This document shows, in pieces, positions 43,851 to 51,106 of a DNA stretch of 64,000 nt. This stretch comes from Caldilineaceae bacterium (GTDB taxonomy: Bacteria; Chloroflexota; Anaerolineae; Caldilineales; Caldilineaceae): positions 1 to 64,000 of the forward strand of contig JAJDXQ010000017.1 in NCBI GenBank assembly GCA_022823185.1, read 5' to 3'. The notes beneath the pieces were generated by a model, which saw only the letters and a list, made by a program, of their open reading frames with translations, did no database searches and had not been told where the DNA came from. A program made the position numbers and the translations under genes. Numbering within the stretch: position 1 is the first letter of the stretch; each line of letters opens with the position of its first letter.

Positions 43851-43853
43851 GTT

Positions 43854-43877
43854 TCTATTGCAATAGTTTGCAATAGA
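43854..43877 (+). promoter_or_regulatory. Probable Zur operator
   Basis: Perfect dyad TCTATTGCAA-N4-TTGCAATAGA, AT-rich like Fur-family boxes, placed over the expected transcription start and 10 bases before the regulator's ATG. It fits autorepression plus control of the downstream zinc genes. The metal assignment rests on the operon. Confidence 0.82.
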
Positions 43878-43887
43878 AAAAAATACC

Positions 43888-44325
43888 ATGACCTGCAATA
43901 CCACAGAGATCAATCGACAGTTGCGCAAAGCTGGCTACCGGGTCACGCCCCAACGCCAGCTCATCCTGGAGGCTGTCTGTCAACTCGGTGAGCATGTCAC
44001 GCCCGAAACGGTGTACGACCATGTACACCGCATCGCTCCCACACTGAGCCGGGCAACTGTTTACCGGGTTCTGCACTTTCTGACAGAACAGCGCATCCTG
44101 GCGATGGTGCATATGGCCGACGGCCGGCTTGCCTACGAAATGTCCGGCCACGAACCGCATCACCACCTCGTCTGCCGCACCTGCGACGGCTTGCTTGAGC
44201 TGCCGCACAGCGTCTTGCAGTCGTTTCGCCGGGCGATGGAGACCCAATACGACTTTGAGATCGACGTAAGTCATGTCTCATTCTTTGGGCACTGCGCCGA
44301 CTGCCGCAGCTCTGCCGGCGCCTGA
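43888..44325 (+). CDS. zur: Fur-family regulator, probably Zur
   Basis: A 145-residue Fur-type repressor: winged helix (GYRVTPQRQLILEAV, TLSRATVYRVLHFL) followed by the dimerisation domain with HHHLVCRTCDGLLELP, containing the first CxxC, and FFGHCADCRSS, the second. The two CxxC pairs form the structural zinc site. Zinc specificity is inferred from the following zinc transporter; ferric or peroxide types are less likely in this position. The gene lies behind its own dyad operator. Confidence 0.87.
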   Translation: MTCNTTEINRQLRKAGYRVTPQRQLILEAVCQLGEHVTPETVYDHVHRIAPTLSRATVYRVLHFLTEQRILAMVHMADGRLAYEMSGHEPHHHLVCRTCDGLLELPHSVLQSFRRAMETQYDFEIDVSHVSFFGHCADCRSSAGA

Positions 44326-44375: not shown

Positions 44376-46673
44376 ATGTTTCACTCGCTTCGAAATTTGT
44401 CATCGGTTCTGGCAATTCTGTTCCTCCTGGCCGCCTGCGCCCCAGTCGCGCCGGCAAGTGTCCAGCCAACCGAGGAGGAGTCGCCCTCCGGGTCGCCGAT
44501 CCAGGTGGTGACAACCACCAACTTTGTGGCTGATTGGGCTCGGGTTGTCGGTGGAAACAGGGTAGAGGTCTTCAGCCTGCTTCCAGTGGGCGGCGATCCG
44601 CACACGTTTCTGCCAGGCGCACGCGACGTTGCCAGGGTAGCTGACGCGGATGTTGTGTTGACTGTCGGTCTCGGCCTGGAGGCCGATTGGCTGGAGGATC
44701 TGTTACACAACGCCAGCGCAGACGAGTCCAGGATCGTCGCGCTTGGTGACAGCGTCGATCCCATCGAGTTTGCCATGGTCGATATGCATGACGATCACGG
44801 GGACGAGCACGGCCATGCCGAGGATGAGCACGAGGATGAGCACGGCCATGCCGAGGATGAGCACGAGGACGAGCACGGCCATGACGAGATGATCATGGGG
44901 CGTTTGCTCGTTGCGGATGCGGAAGAAGCGCACCTCTCCGTCATCGATCTATCCACCGGTGACGTTGACAGCGGAATCTTCGAGGTCGCCGCGCCCAGCG
45001 CGACCGTGCACCCCAGCCCCACTCACCGCTACGCCATTGTCCTCGCCCGCGGGCCGGAGGACGGCGACGACCGGATCCATATCTTCGACAGCGGCGTCTT
45101 CCTCGTCGAGCACGACGATCACTACGACCTCGTCACCCGGCCCGTCTCCCGTCATGCGTTGGAGATCGCTGACGAGCAGCCGGTCCATTATGTCAACAGC
45201 TACGGCTGGACCGCGATCTTCGCAGACATCAGCGGTCACGCCATCCTGATCAACGAGGCCGACATGGCGAACTCACGCGGCGACTATGAGCCGATCGTGC
45301 TCGAGGCCGGACCGCAGCATGGCGCCGCGCTTGTCATCTCGGACGAGCATGTCGTTGTTACCACGAAGAATCCCGACTACCCCGAGAATTCCAACGACAG
45401 CCTGCCTGTTGGCGTGGAAGTTCGCGACTTCAGTGATCAGGTCGTCTACGACGCCAGCAATCGCTCATGCCCTGGCATGCACGGTGAGTCCCACAATGAG
45501 CATGGCGTCGCCTTGGGATGCACCGGCGGCGTGCTCTTCCTCCACACTCACGATGGCGAGTACGAGTACGAGTTCATCGCCAATCCGCCGGAGATGCGCG
45601 AAGGTTCTCGGATCGGGTCGGTCTACGGTCACCACCACGTCGAGCATTTCTTCGGCAAGGCCTCCTACTTCGACGGGCAGGGCTGGGCCGACGATGGCAT
45701 TTGGCTGATCGACGTGGACCACAGCGAAATGCGCCAGGTGTTCAGCGAGCCAAGCGTTTCCACGAAGTTCTCCAGCGATGGCGAGCTGCTCTACGTGCTC
45801 GGCGCTGACGGTGTGCTGCACGCGCTGGACGCGCATGACGGCGAACTGCTCGAGACCATGGAGTTGGTCGGGCCTGGTGACGCCGGTCGTCCTGCGTTCA
45901 TCGTTGTTGGCGAGTGGCTCTACGTCTCCGACCCCAACAGCGGCCACGTCCTGGCCGTCCACCTTGAAGAGATGGAGATCGAGGGGGAGTGGGAAGTCGG
46001 CGGCGCGCCGTCGAGCCTGGCGTTCATCGGAGTCGCCGACTCAGGCGGCGCGCCCGATGAAGGCCATGACGAACACGAAGAGGACGAGCACGGCCATGAC
46101 GAGCACGAAGAGGACGAACACGGCCATGAAGGGCACGACCACGGCCCTCTGGATCCTCACTTCTGGTTCGATCCGATCCGGGTGAAGGTCGCAGTTAACG
46201 AAGTGGCCGCCCGGCTTTCAGCTGTCGACCCTGAAGGCGCGGAGACCTACCTTCGAAACGCCGCAGAGTATGGGGAGCAGCTCGACGAGCTTCACGCCTG
46301 GGTCCAGGAGCAGGTAAGTACTGTGGCGCCGGAGCGCAGACTGCTGGTAACATCACACGACAGCTTCTCCTACTTGGCAGAGCTTTATGGGTTTGAGGTA
46401 GTTGGGCTGGTGATACCGTCTCTTGCAACGCACGTGGAGCCGTCCGCGGAGCACATTGTGGACGTGGTCGAGGTGGTTCGGGAGCACGATATACCAGCAG
46501 TGTTTGGTGAGACGACAGTCAGCGAGAGGCTGGCGCAGACCATAGCAAACGAGACGGGAGCGGAGCTGGTCCGGCTCTATTCTGGTTCCCTTGGGCCGGA
46601 GGACAGCGGCGCTGACACCTATCTTGGCATGGTGCGAACAAACGTAGAACGCATTGTTGAGGCATTGAGATGA
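44376..46673 (+). CDS. Zinc-binding lipoprotein with inserted AztD-like domain
   Basis: A 765-residue chimera. Residues 1-21 are a lipoprotein signal (FLLAAC). Residues 30-135 and about 590-765 are the two lobes of a ZnuA/AztC zinc-binding protein: H76 in GGDPHTF, H595 in LDPHFWFDP, H661 in VTSHDSFSYL and an acidic C-terminal ligand. Instead of one His loop there are two, 137-170 and 561-590 (both built of HGHAEDEHEDE / HDEHEEDEHGH), and between them about 380 residues that match AztD, the beta-propeller zinc chaperone: SGVFLVEHDDHYDL, EQPVHYVNSYGW, CPGMHGESHN, ALGCTGGVLFL and SDPNSGHVL. AztD normally is a separate protein passing zinc to AztC. Upstream frame from 44334 is dropped because the signal starts at 44376. 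Stop overlaps znuC by four bases. Confidence 0.88.
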   Translation: MFHSLRNLSSVLAILFLLAACAPVAPASVQPTEEESPSGSPIQVVTTTNFVADWARVVGGNRVEVFSLLPVGGDPHTFLPGARDVARVADADVVLTVGLGLEADWLEDLLHNASADESRIVALGDSVDPIEFAMVDMHDDHGDEHGHAEDEHEDEHGHAEDEHEDEHGHDEMIMGRLLVADAEEAHLSVIDLSTGDVDSGIFEVAAPSATVHPSPTHRYAIVLARGPEDGDDRIHIFDSGVFLVEHDDHYDLVTRPVSRHALEIADEQPVHYVNSYGWTAIFADISGHAILINEADMANSRGDYEPIVLEAGPQHGAALVISDEHVVVTTKNPDYPENSNDSLPVGVEVRDFSDQVVYDASNRSCPGMHGESHNEHGVALGCTGGVLFLHTHDGEYEYEFIANPPEMREGSRIGSVYGHHHVEHFFGKASYFDGQGWADDGIWLIDVDHSEMRQVFSEPSVSTKFSSDGELLYVLGADGVLHALDAHDGELLETMELVGPGDAGRPAFIVVGEWLYVSDPNSGHVLAVHLEEMEIEGEWEVGGAPSSLAFIGVADSGGAPDEGHDEHEEDEHGHDEHEEDEHGHEGHDHGPLDPHFWFDPIRVKVAVNEVAARLSAVDPEGAETYLRNAAEYGEQLDELHAWVQEQVSTVAPERRLLVTSHDSFSYLAELYGFEVVGLVIPSLATHVEPSAEHIVDVVEVVREHDIPAVFGETTVSERLAQTIANETGAELVRLYSGSLGPEDSGADTYLGMVRTNVERIVEALR

Positions 46674-47437
46674 ACCCCACCCCGTACCCACACGCCGCGA
46701 GAATGTCGCTTCGCGACGTATCTGTAGAGTTCGATGGGCAGATGGCCCTGCGAAACGTCTCATTCGACGTAGATGCGGGGACGCTGATGGGCGTTGTAGG
46801 ACCAAACGGAGCCGGCAAGAGCACCCTGTTCAATGCGATTGCCGGGCTCCTCCCGGTTCGCCGGGGGAAGGTGACCCTTCACCGTGTGGATCGGAAAGGT
46901 GGAGCGTTGGCCTACGTGCCTCAGCGAGAGAGCGTCAACTGGCGCTTCCCTGTGACCGCCATGGACGTTGTCATGATGGGCCGGTGCTGCAGGCTGGGAT
47001 GGTGCCGGCGACCCGGGAAGAGAGATCGCGAGCTTGTCGACGCGTGCCTGTGCCGTGTGGGTCTGTGGGACCATCGCTCCGCTCTGATGACGGAGCTTTC
47101 GGGAGGGCAGAGGCAGCGGGTATTCGTAGCCAGGGCGCTCACCCAGGAGGCAACTGTGCTTCTTCTGGATGAGGCTTTCAGCGGCGTTGACGCGGGCGCC
47201 CAGGAAGGCCTCGTAGAGGTCCTCCAAACGGTGCGCAATGAAGGGCGCATCGTTCTGCTGGCAACCCACGACCTGACCAACCTGGCCGGTCGCTTCGACC
47301 AGGTGTTGTGTCTGAACCGCCATGTGTGCGCCTGCGGCCCGCCCGACGAGGTGTTTACGTCCGAGGTCATGGAGCAGTTGTACGGCGCCCACGGTGTGCG
47401 CCTCACGATCGACGGGGAGGGTGGCAAGAGGAGGTGA
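46670..47437 (+). CDS. znuC: Zinc ABC transporter ATPase (ZnuC/AztA-like)
   Basis: A 255-residue ATPase. Walker A GPNGAGKST near residue 44, Q-loop YVPQRESVNWRFP (the QR-x-x-NW pattern of manganese/zinc importers), signature LSGGQRQRVFVARAL, Walker B VLLLDEAFSGVD and H-loop LLATHDLTNL are intact. ATGA overlap with the lipoprotein gene, GTGA overlap with the permease gene: one coupled import system. Confidence 0.93.
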   Translation: MNPTPYPHAARMSLRDVSVEFDGQMALRNVSFDVDAGTLMGVVGPNGAGKSTLFNAIAGLLPVRRGKVTLHRVDRKGGALAYVPQRESVNWRFPVTAMDVVMMGRCCRLGWCRRPGKRDRELVDACLCRVGLWDHRSALMTELSGGQRQRVFVARALTQEATVLLLDEAFSGVDAGAQEGLVEVLQTVRNEGRIVLLATHDLTNLAGRFDQVLCLNRHVCACGPPDEVFTSEVMEQLYGAHGVRLTIDGEGGKRR

Positions 47438-48252
47438 TAGAGTTCTTTGTCGCCCCACTCGAGTACGGCTTCATGGTGAGGGCCCTTATCGGCTCGGTGC
47501 TTGTGGGCGTGATGTGTCCCCTGGTTGGCGCGTACGTCGTCACCAGGAACCTCGCCTTCATGGGGGACGCACTCGCTCACGCCGTGTTGCCGGGAATGGT
47601 GCTTGGGTTCATCGTGGGCATCAACCCGGCCATAGCCGCCGTTCCAACAGGCGTTGCCGTTGCCGTGCTGGTCAGGATTGTGAGCCGGCGTGCGGGCTTC
47701 AGCACCGATACTTCGATAGGCATCCTCTTTGCGGCCATGTTTGCGCTGGGGCTTGCGATGCTGTCGCTCTCAACGACGATTCGGGTCGATATGGAGGACC
47801 TGCTCCTGGGGCAGCTCCTGGCCATATCTCCGACCGACATCTATGTGTCCCTTGGGATAACCATAATGGTCATCCTGGGGCTATTCGCCCTACACCACTG
47901 GCTGCTGTTTGCGAGCTTTGACCCCGTGGGGTCGCAGGTTGTCGGCGCCCGTGCCAACATTGTCGATTACGTTTTGCTGGTAATGCTTGCCCTCGTAATC
48001 GTGATAGGAATTCAGGCGGCCGGGGTCATTCTGGTCATGGCGATGTTGGTGACACCTGCTGCCACGGCCTATCTGTTGGTGAGGCGATTTGTCTCGATGA
48101 TGATGGCGGCCGCGGCGATAGGGACCGCGGCCGCCGTGACCGGCCTTTACATCTCCTACCACTTCAATCTGCCCCCCGGTCCTGCCATGACCCTGGTCGC
48201 AAGCGGGATATTCGCGCTGGCAATCTCATTCAAGCGAAGAGTGCCCGCCTGA
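47434..48252 (+). CDS. znuB: Zinc ABC transporter permease (ZnuB/AztB-like)
   Basis: A 272-residue ABC-3 type permease with about eight membrane helices. MCPLVGAYVVTRNLAFMGDALAHAVLPG is the family signature. It starts at GTG 47434, overlapping the znuC stop by four bases; an ATG 13 codons later would lose the first helix start. In-frame open sequence goes back to 47308, within znuC, and is not real. The last 181 bases of this gene plus 14 after are copied at 52.2 kb. Confidence 0.92.
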   Translation: MIEFFVAPLEYGFMVRALIGSVLVGVMCPLVGAYVVTRNLAFMGDALAHAVLPGMVLGFIVGINPAIAAVPTGVAVAVLVRIVSRRAGFSTDTSIGILFAAMFALGLAMLSLSTTIRVDMEDLLLGQLLAISPTDIYVSLGITIMVILGLFALHHWLLFASFDPVGSQVVGARANIVDYVLLVMLALVIVIGIQAAGVILVMAMLVTPAATAYLLVRRFVSMMMAAAAIGTAAAVTGLYISYHFNLPPGPAMTLVASGIFALAISFKRRVPA

Positions 48253-48428: not shown

Positions 48429-48462
48429 CACCGATAGACAACAGAAGACAGAGAGGACAAAG

Positions 48463-49626
48463 ATGTTGAATTTGCCCGTTGATTGGGGAACGTTATGGCT
48501 AGGGGGCTTCTGCCCGGTGGAGGCGCTCGGTGGGTTGCCGGTGCGCGGCGCAGATTATGCCGCGCATCCACCGCTGGATGCGCGGCTGACCCTGCCTGCT
48601 AACACAGCTTTACACGCCGAGGTGACGCTTGAAGAGGCAGAAGCGACATGGTCGGAACGCCTGGGCGGCGCATGGGTTGTGCTGGTGCGCGATGCCTACC
48701 GCGCTCGCCGCTTACTGCATCAGGCGGCGGGGATTCGGCCAGGCGAATGGGTCGGTGTCCCGGCAAATGCCAGCCATGAGCTGGCGGAGTCGGTAAAGCG
48801 CCATAAGGCGCTGCCGCGCTTTGTGGACTTTGACGCGCATCTGCGGCTCGCGCCGTCCAGTACGCGCTTCACCTGGACGCAGGTGGTGCGCGGGTTGTGG
48901 CAGCCGCAGAAAGCTAAGTGGCTCGACTGCGCTGACACCCTGCCTACGCCCGGCGCGGCAGAACGCCCGGCGGTGACGCTGTACGGCTTACATCTGCCCG
49001 ATGCTGATGACTGCCCCGGTGCGTTGCTGGCATTCAGTGATGAGACACTCTATGCAGAGGTGAGAGCTTTGCGTCAACCCGCTGACTGCCCGAACGCAGC
49101 GCAGGCCTTGGCGCAATGTGACCGTCTGCCGGAACTGGCAGCGCGGCAAAGCGCGAATCTGGCGGAGGTGCGGCGCGGGTTGCGTGAAGCCGCCGGGCTG
49201 GTGACACACGAGCCGAACAAGCTGGCGCTGGCAACCGCGGTCGCGGTGCAGATTCCACTAGAAAGCGATGTCGCCACCTTTTACGCCTACGTTGTGCAGG
49301 AAAATACGCCCGTGCGCTGGCTGCCACAGATTCGGCCTTTGCATTATGCCGCGCTGGGTGCTGACGGCGCGCCCGATCACCTGGGAACGGCGGCGAACCT
49401 CGCCCGCTGGATGTGCGTCCCGGTGGGGCCGGATTACACCTTTGAGGAGATCAAACATGGCGTGCTGGGCATCGTCAAAGCGGCGGAATATCTCGGTGTG
49501 CGCTGGCGCATCAATCCCGCCTATGCTGCCGAGTACGCCTCCTTGATGGATCGCACCTATGGCGCAGGGCATGATGCCTACCGTCCCTTGTTCGCGCTGG
49601 ATGAAGCCATCGCAGCGGGAGATTAG
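48463..49626 (+). CDS. Putative DegT/DnrJ aminotransferase-fold protein
   Basis: A 387-residue soluble protein not assignable with confidence. Part of it reads like the large domain of DegT/DnrJ PLP enzymes: YRARRLLHQAAGIRPGEWVGVPANASHELAESVKRH, then FVDFDAHLRLAPSS and, later, PGALLAFSDETLYAEVRALRQP, which recalls the stretch after the PLP-lysine. The catalytic Lys expected just before that stretch is not visible (GLHLPDADDC there), so it may be an inactive relative. GAGAGGA precedes the ATG by six bases. It runs in the same direction as a 33-residue ORF, a COG0523 GTPase and a WD40 protein. Confidence 0.5.
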   Translation: MLNLPVDWGTLWLGGFCPVEALGGLPVRGADYAAHPPLDARLTLPANTALHAEVTLEEAEATWSERLGGAWVVLVRDAYRARRLLHQAAGIRPGEWVGVPANASHELAESVKRHKALPRFVDFDAHLRLAPSSTRFTWTQVVRGLWQPQKAKWLDCADTLPTPGAAERPAVTLYGLHLPDADDCPGALLAFSDETLYAEVRALRQPADCPNAAQALAQCDRLPELAARQSANLAEVRRGLREAAGLVTHEPNKLALATAVAVQIPLESDVATFYAYVVQENTPVRWLPQIRPLHYAALGADGAPDHLGTAANLARWMCVPVGPDYTFEEIKHGVLGIVKAAEYLGVRWRINPAYAAEYASLMDRTYGAGHDAYRPLFALDEAIAAGD

Positions 49627-49628
49627 CC

Positions 49629-49730
49629 ATGCAGCCGCTCCCCATCAACGGGATGCTGCATCAGTTCAAGACCGCGCTGACGCGGGCGCTCATTGAAGCG
49701 CTGTCCGCCGAAAGCGATAACAACAGTTGA
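49629..49730 (+). CDS. Small ORF, 33 residues, unknown
   Basis: Starts two bases after the preceding stop with GGGAGA seven bases upstream and ends 18 bases before the COG0523 start. MQPLPINGMLHQFKTALTRA then a helical, acidic end. I recognise no family, but its tight fit between two genes and plausible ribosome-binding site argue for a real peptide. Confidence 0.5.
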   Translation: MQPLPINGMLHQFKTALTRALIEALSAESDNNS

Positions 49731-49747
49731 AAAGAGGAGACAGGAGC

Positions 49748-51106
49748 ATGATGAATGCAGTTGAAACACGAGTGCCAGTGACCGTTCTGACGGGCTTTCT
49801 GGGGGCAGGCAAAACCACGTTACTCAACCGCGTTCTGACCGAAAATCACGGGAAGAGAATCGCGGTGATCGAAAATGAGTTCGGCGAGATCGGCATCGAT
49901 AACGATCTGGTCATTGGCGCGGAAGAAGAGATCTTCGAAATGAACAACGGATGCATCTGCTGCACCGTTCGGGGTGATTTGATTCGCATTCTCAGTCATC
50001 TGATGAAGCGCCGCGATAAGTTCGATTACATCATGGTCGAAACCACCGGCATGGCGGATCCCGGTCCCGTCGCCCAGACCTTCTACGTGGATGATGATAT
50101 GCAGGACAAGCTGTTGCTGGATGCGATTGTCACAGTGGTAGATGCCAAACACATCTGGGAACACATCGACGACAGCGATGAGGCAAAAGAACAGGTAGCC
50201 TTTGCTGATGTGATCCTGCTCAATAAGATCGATCTGGTTGCCCCGGAAGACCTCGACAGACTCGAAGCACGCATCAAAAGCATGAACAGCATGGCGAAAA
50301 TATGCCGCACCCGCGACGCGGTGGTCGAGATGGACAACATTCTCAATGTGGGTGGCTTCAACCTCGACCGGGCGCTGGAAATCGACCCGAAGTTCATGGA
50401 GCCAGAGTACCCGTTCGAATGGTCGGGTATCTATGAACTGAGCGCCGGGAGTTACGAATGGGTGATGGGTGAGGGCCCTGACCCGGCCATGGGGGCCGCG
50501 CTGCTGCCGCTGTCAAATAGTGGAATGCCGGCGAAGGAAGCGACGCTGATGGACGCCGTACTGACCTTCTCTGAAGATGAGCAGGCAGTGCAGGCAGGCG
50601 AAGCGCTGCGCCTCGGCAAAGGACAACACAACCAGCTCGTGCTGAACGGAAAAGGCGAGACCGTCTTCAACTTCGTGATTCAGCGGCAGGGCTGTTACAT
50701 GCTGTTCACCGAGCATCACCCTGATGAATTCGACGCGCACCTGTGCGGCACGGATGCCGTGCTTGCCCCGCTCGAAACCCGCGAGTACAAGCCCGACCAT
50801 GAACACGACGAAGAAGTGACTTCTGTTGGGATCACCCTCCCCGGTGATTTTCACCTGGAGAGGCTCAATGACTGGTTAGGCCAGCTGCTGCGCGTGCATG
50901 GACAGGACATCTTCCGTATGAAAGGCGTGTTGAGCGTGCGCGGCTGGGAAGAGCGCTTCGTATTTCAGGGGGTGCATATGCTCTTTGACGGCCGCCCGGA
51001 TCGTCCGTGGGCGAATGAACTGCGTCAAAACAAGATGGTTTTCATCGGGCGCAACCTGGATCGGGCTGCGCTGGATGAAGGCTTTCGCGCATGTCTCGTG
51101 TCATGA
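49748..51106 (+). CDS. COG0523-family GTPase (metallochaperone)
   Basis: A 452-residue G3E-family GTPase. Walker A GFLGAGKTTLLN near residue 16, Mg2+/switch ENEFGEIGIDN, the metal motif GCICC in NNGCICCTVRGDL, Walker B-like VETTGMADP, base-specificity NKIDLV, and a C-terminal CobW_C domain with RMKGVLSV and ERFVFQGVHMLFD. Two His/Glu clusters (HEHDEE near residue 355) suit zinc handling. Members such as ZagA, YciC and ZNG1 deliver zinc to client enzymes during shortage. AGAGGAGA seven bases before the ATG at 49748. Confidence 0.9.
   Translation: MMNAVETRVPVTVLTGFLGAGKTTLLNRVLTENHGKRIAVIENEFGEIGIDNDLVIGAEEEIFEMNNGCICCTVRGDLIRILSHLMKRRDKFDYIMVETTGMADPGPVAQTFYVDDDMQDKLLLDAIVTVVDAKHIWEHIDDSDEAKEQVAFADVILLNKIDLVAPEDLDRLEARIKSMNSMAKICRTRDAVVEMDNILNVGGFNLDRALEIDPKFMEPEYPFEWSGIYELSAGSYEWVMGEGPDPAMGAALLPLSNSGMPAKEATLMDAVLTFSEDEQAVQAGEALRLGKGQHNQLVLNGKGETVFNFVIQRQGCYMLFTEHHPDEFDAHLCGTDAVLAPLETREYKPDHEHDEEVTSVGITLPGDFHLERLNDWLGQLLRVHGQDIFRMKGVLSVRGWEERFVFQGVHMLFDGRPDRPWANELRQNKMVFIGRNLDRAALDEGFRACLVS

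Follow-up and report, generated by a model that had tools for sequence, protein, structure and literature searches.

A zinc-receptor lipoprotein with a predicted AztD-type metallochaperone domain in its D-loop, and the putative exchange of this domain between receptors of Chloroflexota

The window, i.e. the whole 64,000-nt stretch of Caldilineaceae DNA analysed here, encodes a lipoprotein in which, judging by sequence comparison, the D-loop of a three-histidine receptor of the ZnuA/AztC type hosts a beta-propeller homologous to the zinc chaperone AztD. The product is probably a zinc receptor with a built-in, tethered donor, in which AztD site 2 would load the receptor cleft within one molecule. 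It also seems reasonably likely that the AztD domain is a cassette repeatedly exchanged, always at the same loop, among zinc receptors that are not orthologous, a modular intramolecular hand-over having been rewired via His-coding repeats.

Background

Homologs of the two parts are the separate partners AztC and AztD of the AztABCD transporter of Paracoccus denitrificans (PDB 5w56/5w57, 6ck1). The D-loop of P. denitrificans AztC, with its three histidines, is required to accept zinc from AztD, and a published docking model places it, as a free hairpin, inside the AztD pore; the zinc of site 2 alone is transferred, association is rate-limiting, and site 2 sits on an extension built from a hairpin and both terminal strands (PMC6689063, PMC7463823). 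The Paracoccus AztD ligands are His124, His167 and His218 in site 1 and His99, His102, Asp104 and His408 in site 2, the C-terminal ligand His408 being kept in 68% of AztD homologues (PMC6689063). Because the two proteins separate quickly, transfer from AztD to AztC is known via a docking model. With a one-chain version from nature, open to crystallisation, mutagenesis and kinetic measurement, the geometry of transfer becomes directly testable, as does the question whether the D-loop must really enter the AztD pore. The fusion would also illustrate how a metallochaperone evolves from a free partner to an exchangeable built-in part, at the very loop that mediates the interaction.

Results and discussion

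Domain organization of the fusion protein

The reading frame is uninterrupted from ATG to TGA (Table 1). Pfam ZnuA (PF01297) matches the product twice (combined E 2.1e-80; 270 bits, cut-off 29), with no Pfam match between the two stretches, and the NCBIfam AztC profile falls on the two outer parts. The NCBIfam AztD profile (NF038015) covers residues 179-550 (E 8e-40). When the middle was analysed in isolation, it matched positions 1-353 of the 356 in this profile (E 1.5e-40), and the only PDB sequences retrieved were 6cmk (1.2e-20) and 6ck1 (3e-17), both AztD. The first-pass annotation, made from the sequence alone, had recognized two receptor lobes in one frame with H76, H595 and H661 and an AztD-like middle; the residues are correct and the identity of the middle is upheld. 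The scores of the middle (139 bits, AztD cut-off 400) and of the receptor (247 bits, AztC cut-off 350) lie below the curated NCBIfam cut-offs, so both are homologous domains and not equivalogs of AztD and AztC; the receptor, with its Gly737, failed the AztC-equivalog test.

The AlphaFold model of the whole fusion has a pLDDT of 69, with both linkers below 50. A structure search with it returned AztD entries 6n01, 6cmk and 6ck1 as the top PDB matches (best E 2.9e-24, TM 0.76-0.79 by target length), followed by metal receptors including YfeA and AztC. The predicted fold of the middle is an AztD-like beta-propeller. Domain orientation is not fixed by AlphaFold (two models, pTM 0.49), and at this pTM no orientation is claimed.

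Table 1 Features of the fusion gene and its neighbourhood in window coordinates
Feature	Coordinates	Strand	Basis
Inverted repeat, 12-bp arms, TTTCTATTGCAA-TAGT-TTGCAATAGAAA, behind the TTGACA-17-TACACT promoter of the Fur-family gene	43852..43879		
Fur-family metal regulator, Zur-like by context	43888..44325	+	PF01475, 7e-24
Fusion lipoprotein gene, AztD in receptor, 765 aa (P0001)	44376..46673	+	ORF, Pfam, NCBIfam
Signal peptide and lipobox LAAC, lipidated Cys21	44376..44438	+	sequence
Receptor N-lobe, ZnuA/AztC-type; zinc ligand His76 at 44601-44603	44439..44780	+	profiles
Linker 1, His/Asp/Glu repeat, first half of D-loop, residues 136-174	44781..44897	+	sequence; model low-confidence/disordered
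24-bp direct repeat GAGGACGAGCACGGCCATGACGAG, left of insert	44865..44888	+	
AztD-homologous beta-propeller domain (predicted), residues 175-552 (378 residues)	44898..46031	+	profile, PDB sequences, fold
AztD site 2 (transfer) motif H246-D-D-H249-Y-D251, equivalent to Paracoccus His99/His102/Asp104	45111..45128	+	alignment, PMC6689063
AztD site 1 ligands H271, H315, H369, equivalent to Paracoccus His124/His167/His218	45186..45482	+	alignment
Linker 2, His/Asp/Glu repeat, second half of D-loop, residues 553-592	46032..46151	+	sequence; model
Identical 24-bp direct repeat GAGGACGAGCACGGCCATGACGAG, right of insert	46080..46103	+	
Receptor C-lobe; ligands His595, His661; usual fourth ligand Asp is Gly737	46152..46670	+	profile, alignment
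ABC transporter ATPase, same operon; start codon overlaps fusion stop	46670..47437	+	profiles
ABC-3 metal permease, GTG start inferred	47434..48252	+	PF00950, 6.7e-71
CobW/COG0523-type GTPase, usual aztD neighbour	49727..51106	+	profile

Zinc ligands of the two domains

In an alignment with 6ck1, whose residue numbering agrees with the published Paracoccus AztD ligands, all six core AztD zinc ligands are present in the fusion. His408 has no fixed equivalent: the first histidine stands 12 residues past the core, in linker 2, and stand-alone AztD relatives have a terminal histidine ~6 residues past the core, at the His408 place. The analysis set left after a profile check of both lobes comprised 40 fused and 12 stand-alone proteins. 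Among these 52 AztD domains the equivalents of His99, His102 and Asp104 are conserved in 52/52, 51/52 and 52/52, respectively, and site 1 is partly lost in three (L004, L005 and L020). Retention of site 2 with loss of site 1 in a few domains is what one would expect if selection acts on transfer from site 2.

The receptor zinc site of the fusion is formed by H76, H595 and H661, and these histidines are retained in nearly all receptor backbones (defined below). Zinc is favoured as the metal, because the third histidine is replaced by Glu in the manganese receptor PsaA. At the position of ligand Asp279 of AztC, however, the fusion receptor has Gly737 (codon 46584-46586). Gly instead of Asp as the fourth position of the cluster A-I metal site is found in most backbone-A receptors, both with and without the insert; the Asp is retained in L119 and L064/L065.

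The insertion point and the flanking repeats

The insertion point can be placed precisely, inside the D-loop, since the same operon of close relatives in the genus contains an uninterrupted receptor. In the one-contig genome G414 the order Fur - receptor - ABC - permease - ORF - CobW is the same as in the window, and one long loop of Asp-Glu-His repeats joins the lobes of the uninserted receptor, whose C-lobe is 92% identical to that of the fusion. Genome G410 (OY282376.1) holds inserted and uninserted copies ~4.8 kb apart. Long His loops, of up to ~100 residues, are a feature of the uninserted receptors. Together with the profiles, these empty-site relatives support the earlier claim of an AztD-type domain within the D-loop of a ZnuA/AztC receptor.

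Both linkers are composed almost exclusively of His, Asp, Glu and Gly, and share the exact 24-bp repeat, which sits within His-coding arrays; the near-identical composition of the two loops had been noticed before and is confirmed. A short-linker form is seen in L020, with linkers of 16 and 18 residues. The repeats may allow the domain to be inserted, exchanged and lost, and we infer that the cassette has moved by recombination in the flanking His/Asp/Glu-coding repeats. The first-pass annotation assumed that the His loop had been duplicated, which is not established: splitting of one repeat loop explains the two flanks equally well, and so does recombination with the N-terminal His tract of a stand-alone AztD.

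At locus L008 (1298-7758) the Fur and receptor genes are tandemly duplicated; the uninserted copy is accompanied by ABC and permease genes, and the second receptor copy has AztD inserted and no ABC/permease of its own. At L051 607-2022 (G094, Chloroflexota) the same D-loop contains a different domain of ~100 residues with no family match.

Distribution of the fusion

The fusion was found in 11/17 genomes of the genus, in 5/400 genomes sampled across the phylum and, judged by reading-frame length, in 27/343 genomes of the class Dehalococcoidia. AztD is borne by 36 of these 343 genomes, 27 having the fusion and 9 only a stand-alone AztD, with both forms present in 2. The 40 fused proteins originate from many Chloroflexota assemblies, including the single-contig genomes G410 (OY282376.1) and G713; some of the fused genes have no adjacent ABC gene. 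The open frame and the recurrence of the fusion in many independent assemblies, single-contig ones included, rule out a frameshift or an assembly chimera, possibilities that the first reading had raised.

The AztD matches listed on plasmids outside Chloroflexota were separate genes or unannotated. On pTB1 of Thermus brockianus the receptor gene is directly followed by an AztD homologue, with a gene for a GTP-binding protein one gene further on; this arrangement is a split version of the fusion. In the papers searched, few of them subscription papers or preprints, we found no description of an AztC-AztD fusion, and the suggestion that the fusion is new stands to that extent.

The stand-alone AztD lipoproteins of Dehalococcoidia (L098, L101-L108, L111-L113) have a propeller ~50% identical to that of the fusion, the same ligands and a tract rich in His and Asp, here at the N-terminus. 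They differ in having a C-terminal histidine at the His408 place and no receptor around them. A stand-alone AztD-like propeller with a weak score, seemingly without the HxxHxD motif of site 2, is encoded at L076 6914-8401 (G094).

Discordant histories of insert and receptor

Inserts and receptors do not share one phylogeny. The window protein and that of Dehalococcoidia L016 are 72% identical in the insert and 32% in the C-lobe, whereas comparison with L004/L005 (f35) gives 35-37% for the insert and 76-79% for the C-lobe. When C-lobes were grouped at a 48% identity threshold, six receptor backbones (A to F) were obtained, and on the insert tree the backbone must have changed 8 times or more, and the state (fused or stand-alone) at least twice. 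In AU tests, holding all backbone-A inserts together was rejected (p 5.3e-5), as was grouping the receptor lobes as in the insert tree (p 4.0e-6); an earlier, smaller test, on the grouping of Caldilineaceae, f35 and APA_bin_32, fell short of significance (p 0.19). A difference between slow and fast evolution does not account for the tree conflict, given that different pairs show opposite identity ratios and the AU tests are strong.

Within the genus, dS is 0.10-0.17 for the insert versus 0.2-0.4 (0.21-0.40) for the lobes, and GC3 is 0.80 versus 0.62-0.78, values consistent with a later spread of the insert. Its dN/dS of 0.07-0.29 indicates purifying selection on the AztD domain. In L008 the lobes cluster with uninserted receptors and the insert is of the genus type. 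The stand-alone AztD is also a lipoprotein, and some stand-alone proteins nest among the fused inserts in the tree. Since the module occurs in six backbones and as a stand-alone lipoprotein, it behaves as an exchangeable cassette, and the trees point to its transfer between receptors. The first-pass interpretation is partly supported: AztD within the D-loop is retained, whereas the commonness of the fusion and the shuffling of the module between receptors had been missed.

Proposed mode of action and its alternatives

In the mechanism that we propose, zinc would be captured by the AztD domain at site 2, while site 1 and the linkers would serve as a reserve; the zinc of site 2 would be passed straight into the H76/H595/H661 cleft of the same molecule, and the loaded receptor would then supply the ABC permease encoded next door. 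As both AztD termini are joined to the D-loop, site 2 should lie beside the cleft and the slow encounter step would be removed. In the fusion the two halves of the D-loop continue into the AztD termini, and the geometry must therefore depart at least partly from that of the docking model. The first reading credited the receptor with storing, loading and sensing its own zinc; storing and loading may reasonably be deduced from AztD/AztC biochemistry, but sensing is unsupported.

The AztD domain and the linkers might instead act as a surface sponge that only raises the local amount of bound zinc, by storing it or scavenging it from the surroundings, the receptor taking up dissociated metal with no directed hand-over. 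Each AztD has two high-affinity sites, the linkers are very rich in histidine, uninserted receptors have long His loops too, and a storage role of site 1 has been discussed (PMC6689063). We nevertheless regard this explanation as unlikely, because it is the transfer site that is most conserved while site 1 decays in three proteins, every insertion lies in the loop on which transfer depends, and donor and acceptor are natural partners. The near-invariance of site 2 across copies diverged to 35% identity speaks against a passive store and also against structural re-use. In the latter case the domain would serve for docking, as a lid or as a spacer, e.g. to keep the receptor close to the permease or to the cell surface, and its zinc binding would be incidental. 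That the D-loop also hosts the ~225-residue insert of TIGR03772 proteins and the unrelated insert of L051 indicates that it tolerates domains of various kinds, yet re-use of this sort appears quite improbable. Repeats in the flanking DNA could promote slippage and misassembly, but a neutral insertion or an assembly or annotation artefact, to which we assign a negligible probability, is refuted by the comparative data: the insert is under purifying selection, and 40 fused proteins on six backbones come from many genomes and assemblies, some of them single-contig.

Comparison with known systems

The fusion locus resembles AztABCD in its operon company, with ABC ATPase, permease, Fur-type regulator and CobW GTPase in common, and in the six core ligands of sites 1 and 2. 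The difference is that AztC and AztD are two proteins that meet transiently, whereas the fusion is one polypeptide with AztD placed within the D-loop that mediates transfer. TIGR03772, an anchored-repeat ABC substrate-binding protein, belongs to the ZnuA family of receptors and contains a large insertion between its lobes too, at the same place (profile matches of the lobes at 1-85 and 311-483 of 486), but its ~225 inserted residues have no match in the fusion protein. Its insert is presumably an actinobacterial surface-protein domain and not AztD. The streptococcal AdcA (ZnuA-like plus ZinT) is likewise a zinc receptor fused to a second zinc-binding domain, which is thought to pass zinc via the His-rich loop (PMC7858048); that domain is, however, ZinT, which follows the receptor C-terminally via a linker of 11 residues and does not lie within the His-rich loop. 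The Pfam scan found no AdcA-like C-terminal ZinT domain in the fusion, which ends with the receptor C-lobe. With these precedents, what appears to be new is the AztD insert, with its unusual evolutionary pattern.

Operon context and a candidate operator

The palindrome in front of the Fur-family gene is probably an autoregulatory operator of this regulator. A genome-wide regulon was rejected, as searches with the operator-like palindrome gave only single places at up to 3 mismatches. Versions resembling TTGTTGCnAATTnTnGCAACAA occur in sister loci and also at another Fur gene of this genome, located on contig C28. There a second metal-uptake locus (L077 5418-10615) has a Fur gene 88% identical to that of the window and holds two or three additional ZnuA-type receptors. 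Between the permease and CobW genes of the window lies an ORF of 388 aa (48460-49626), 90-93% identical in sister loci, whose sole family match is a sub-threshold one to DegT-aminotransferase.
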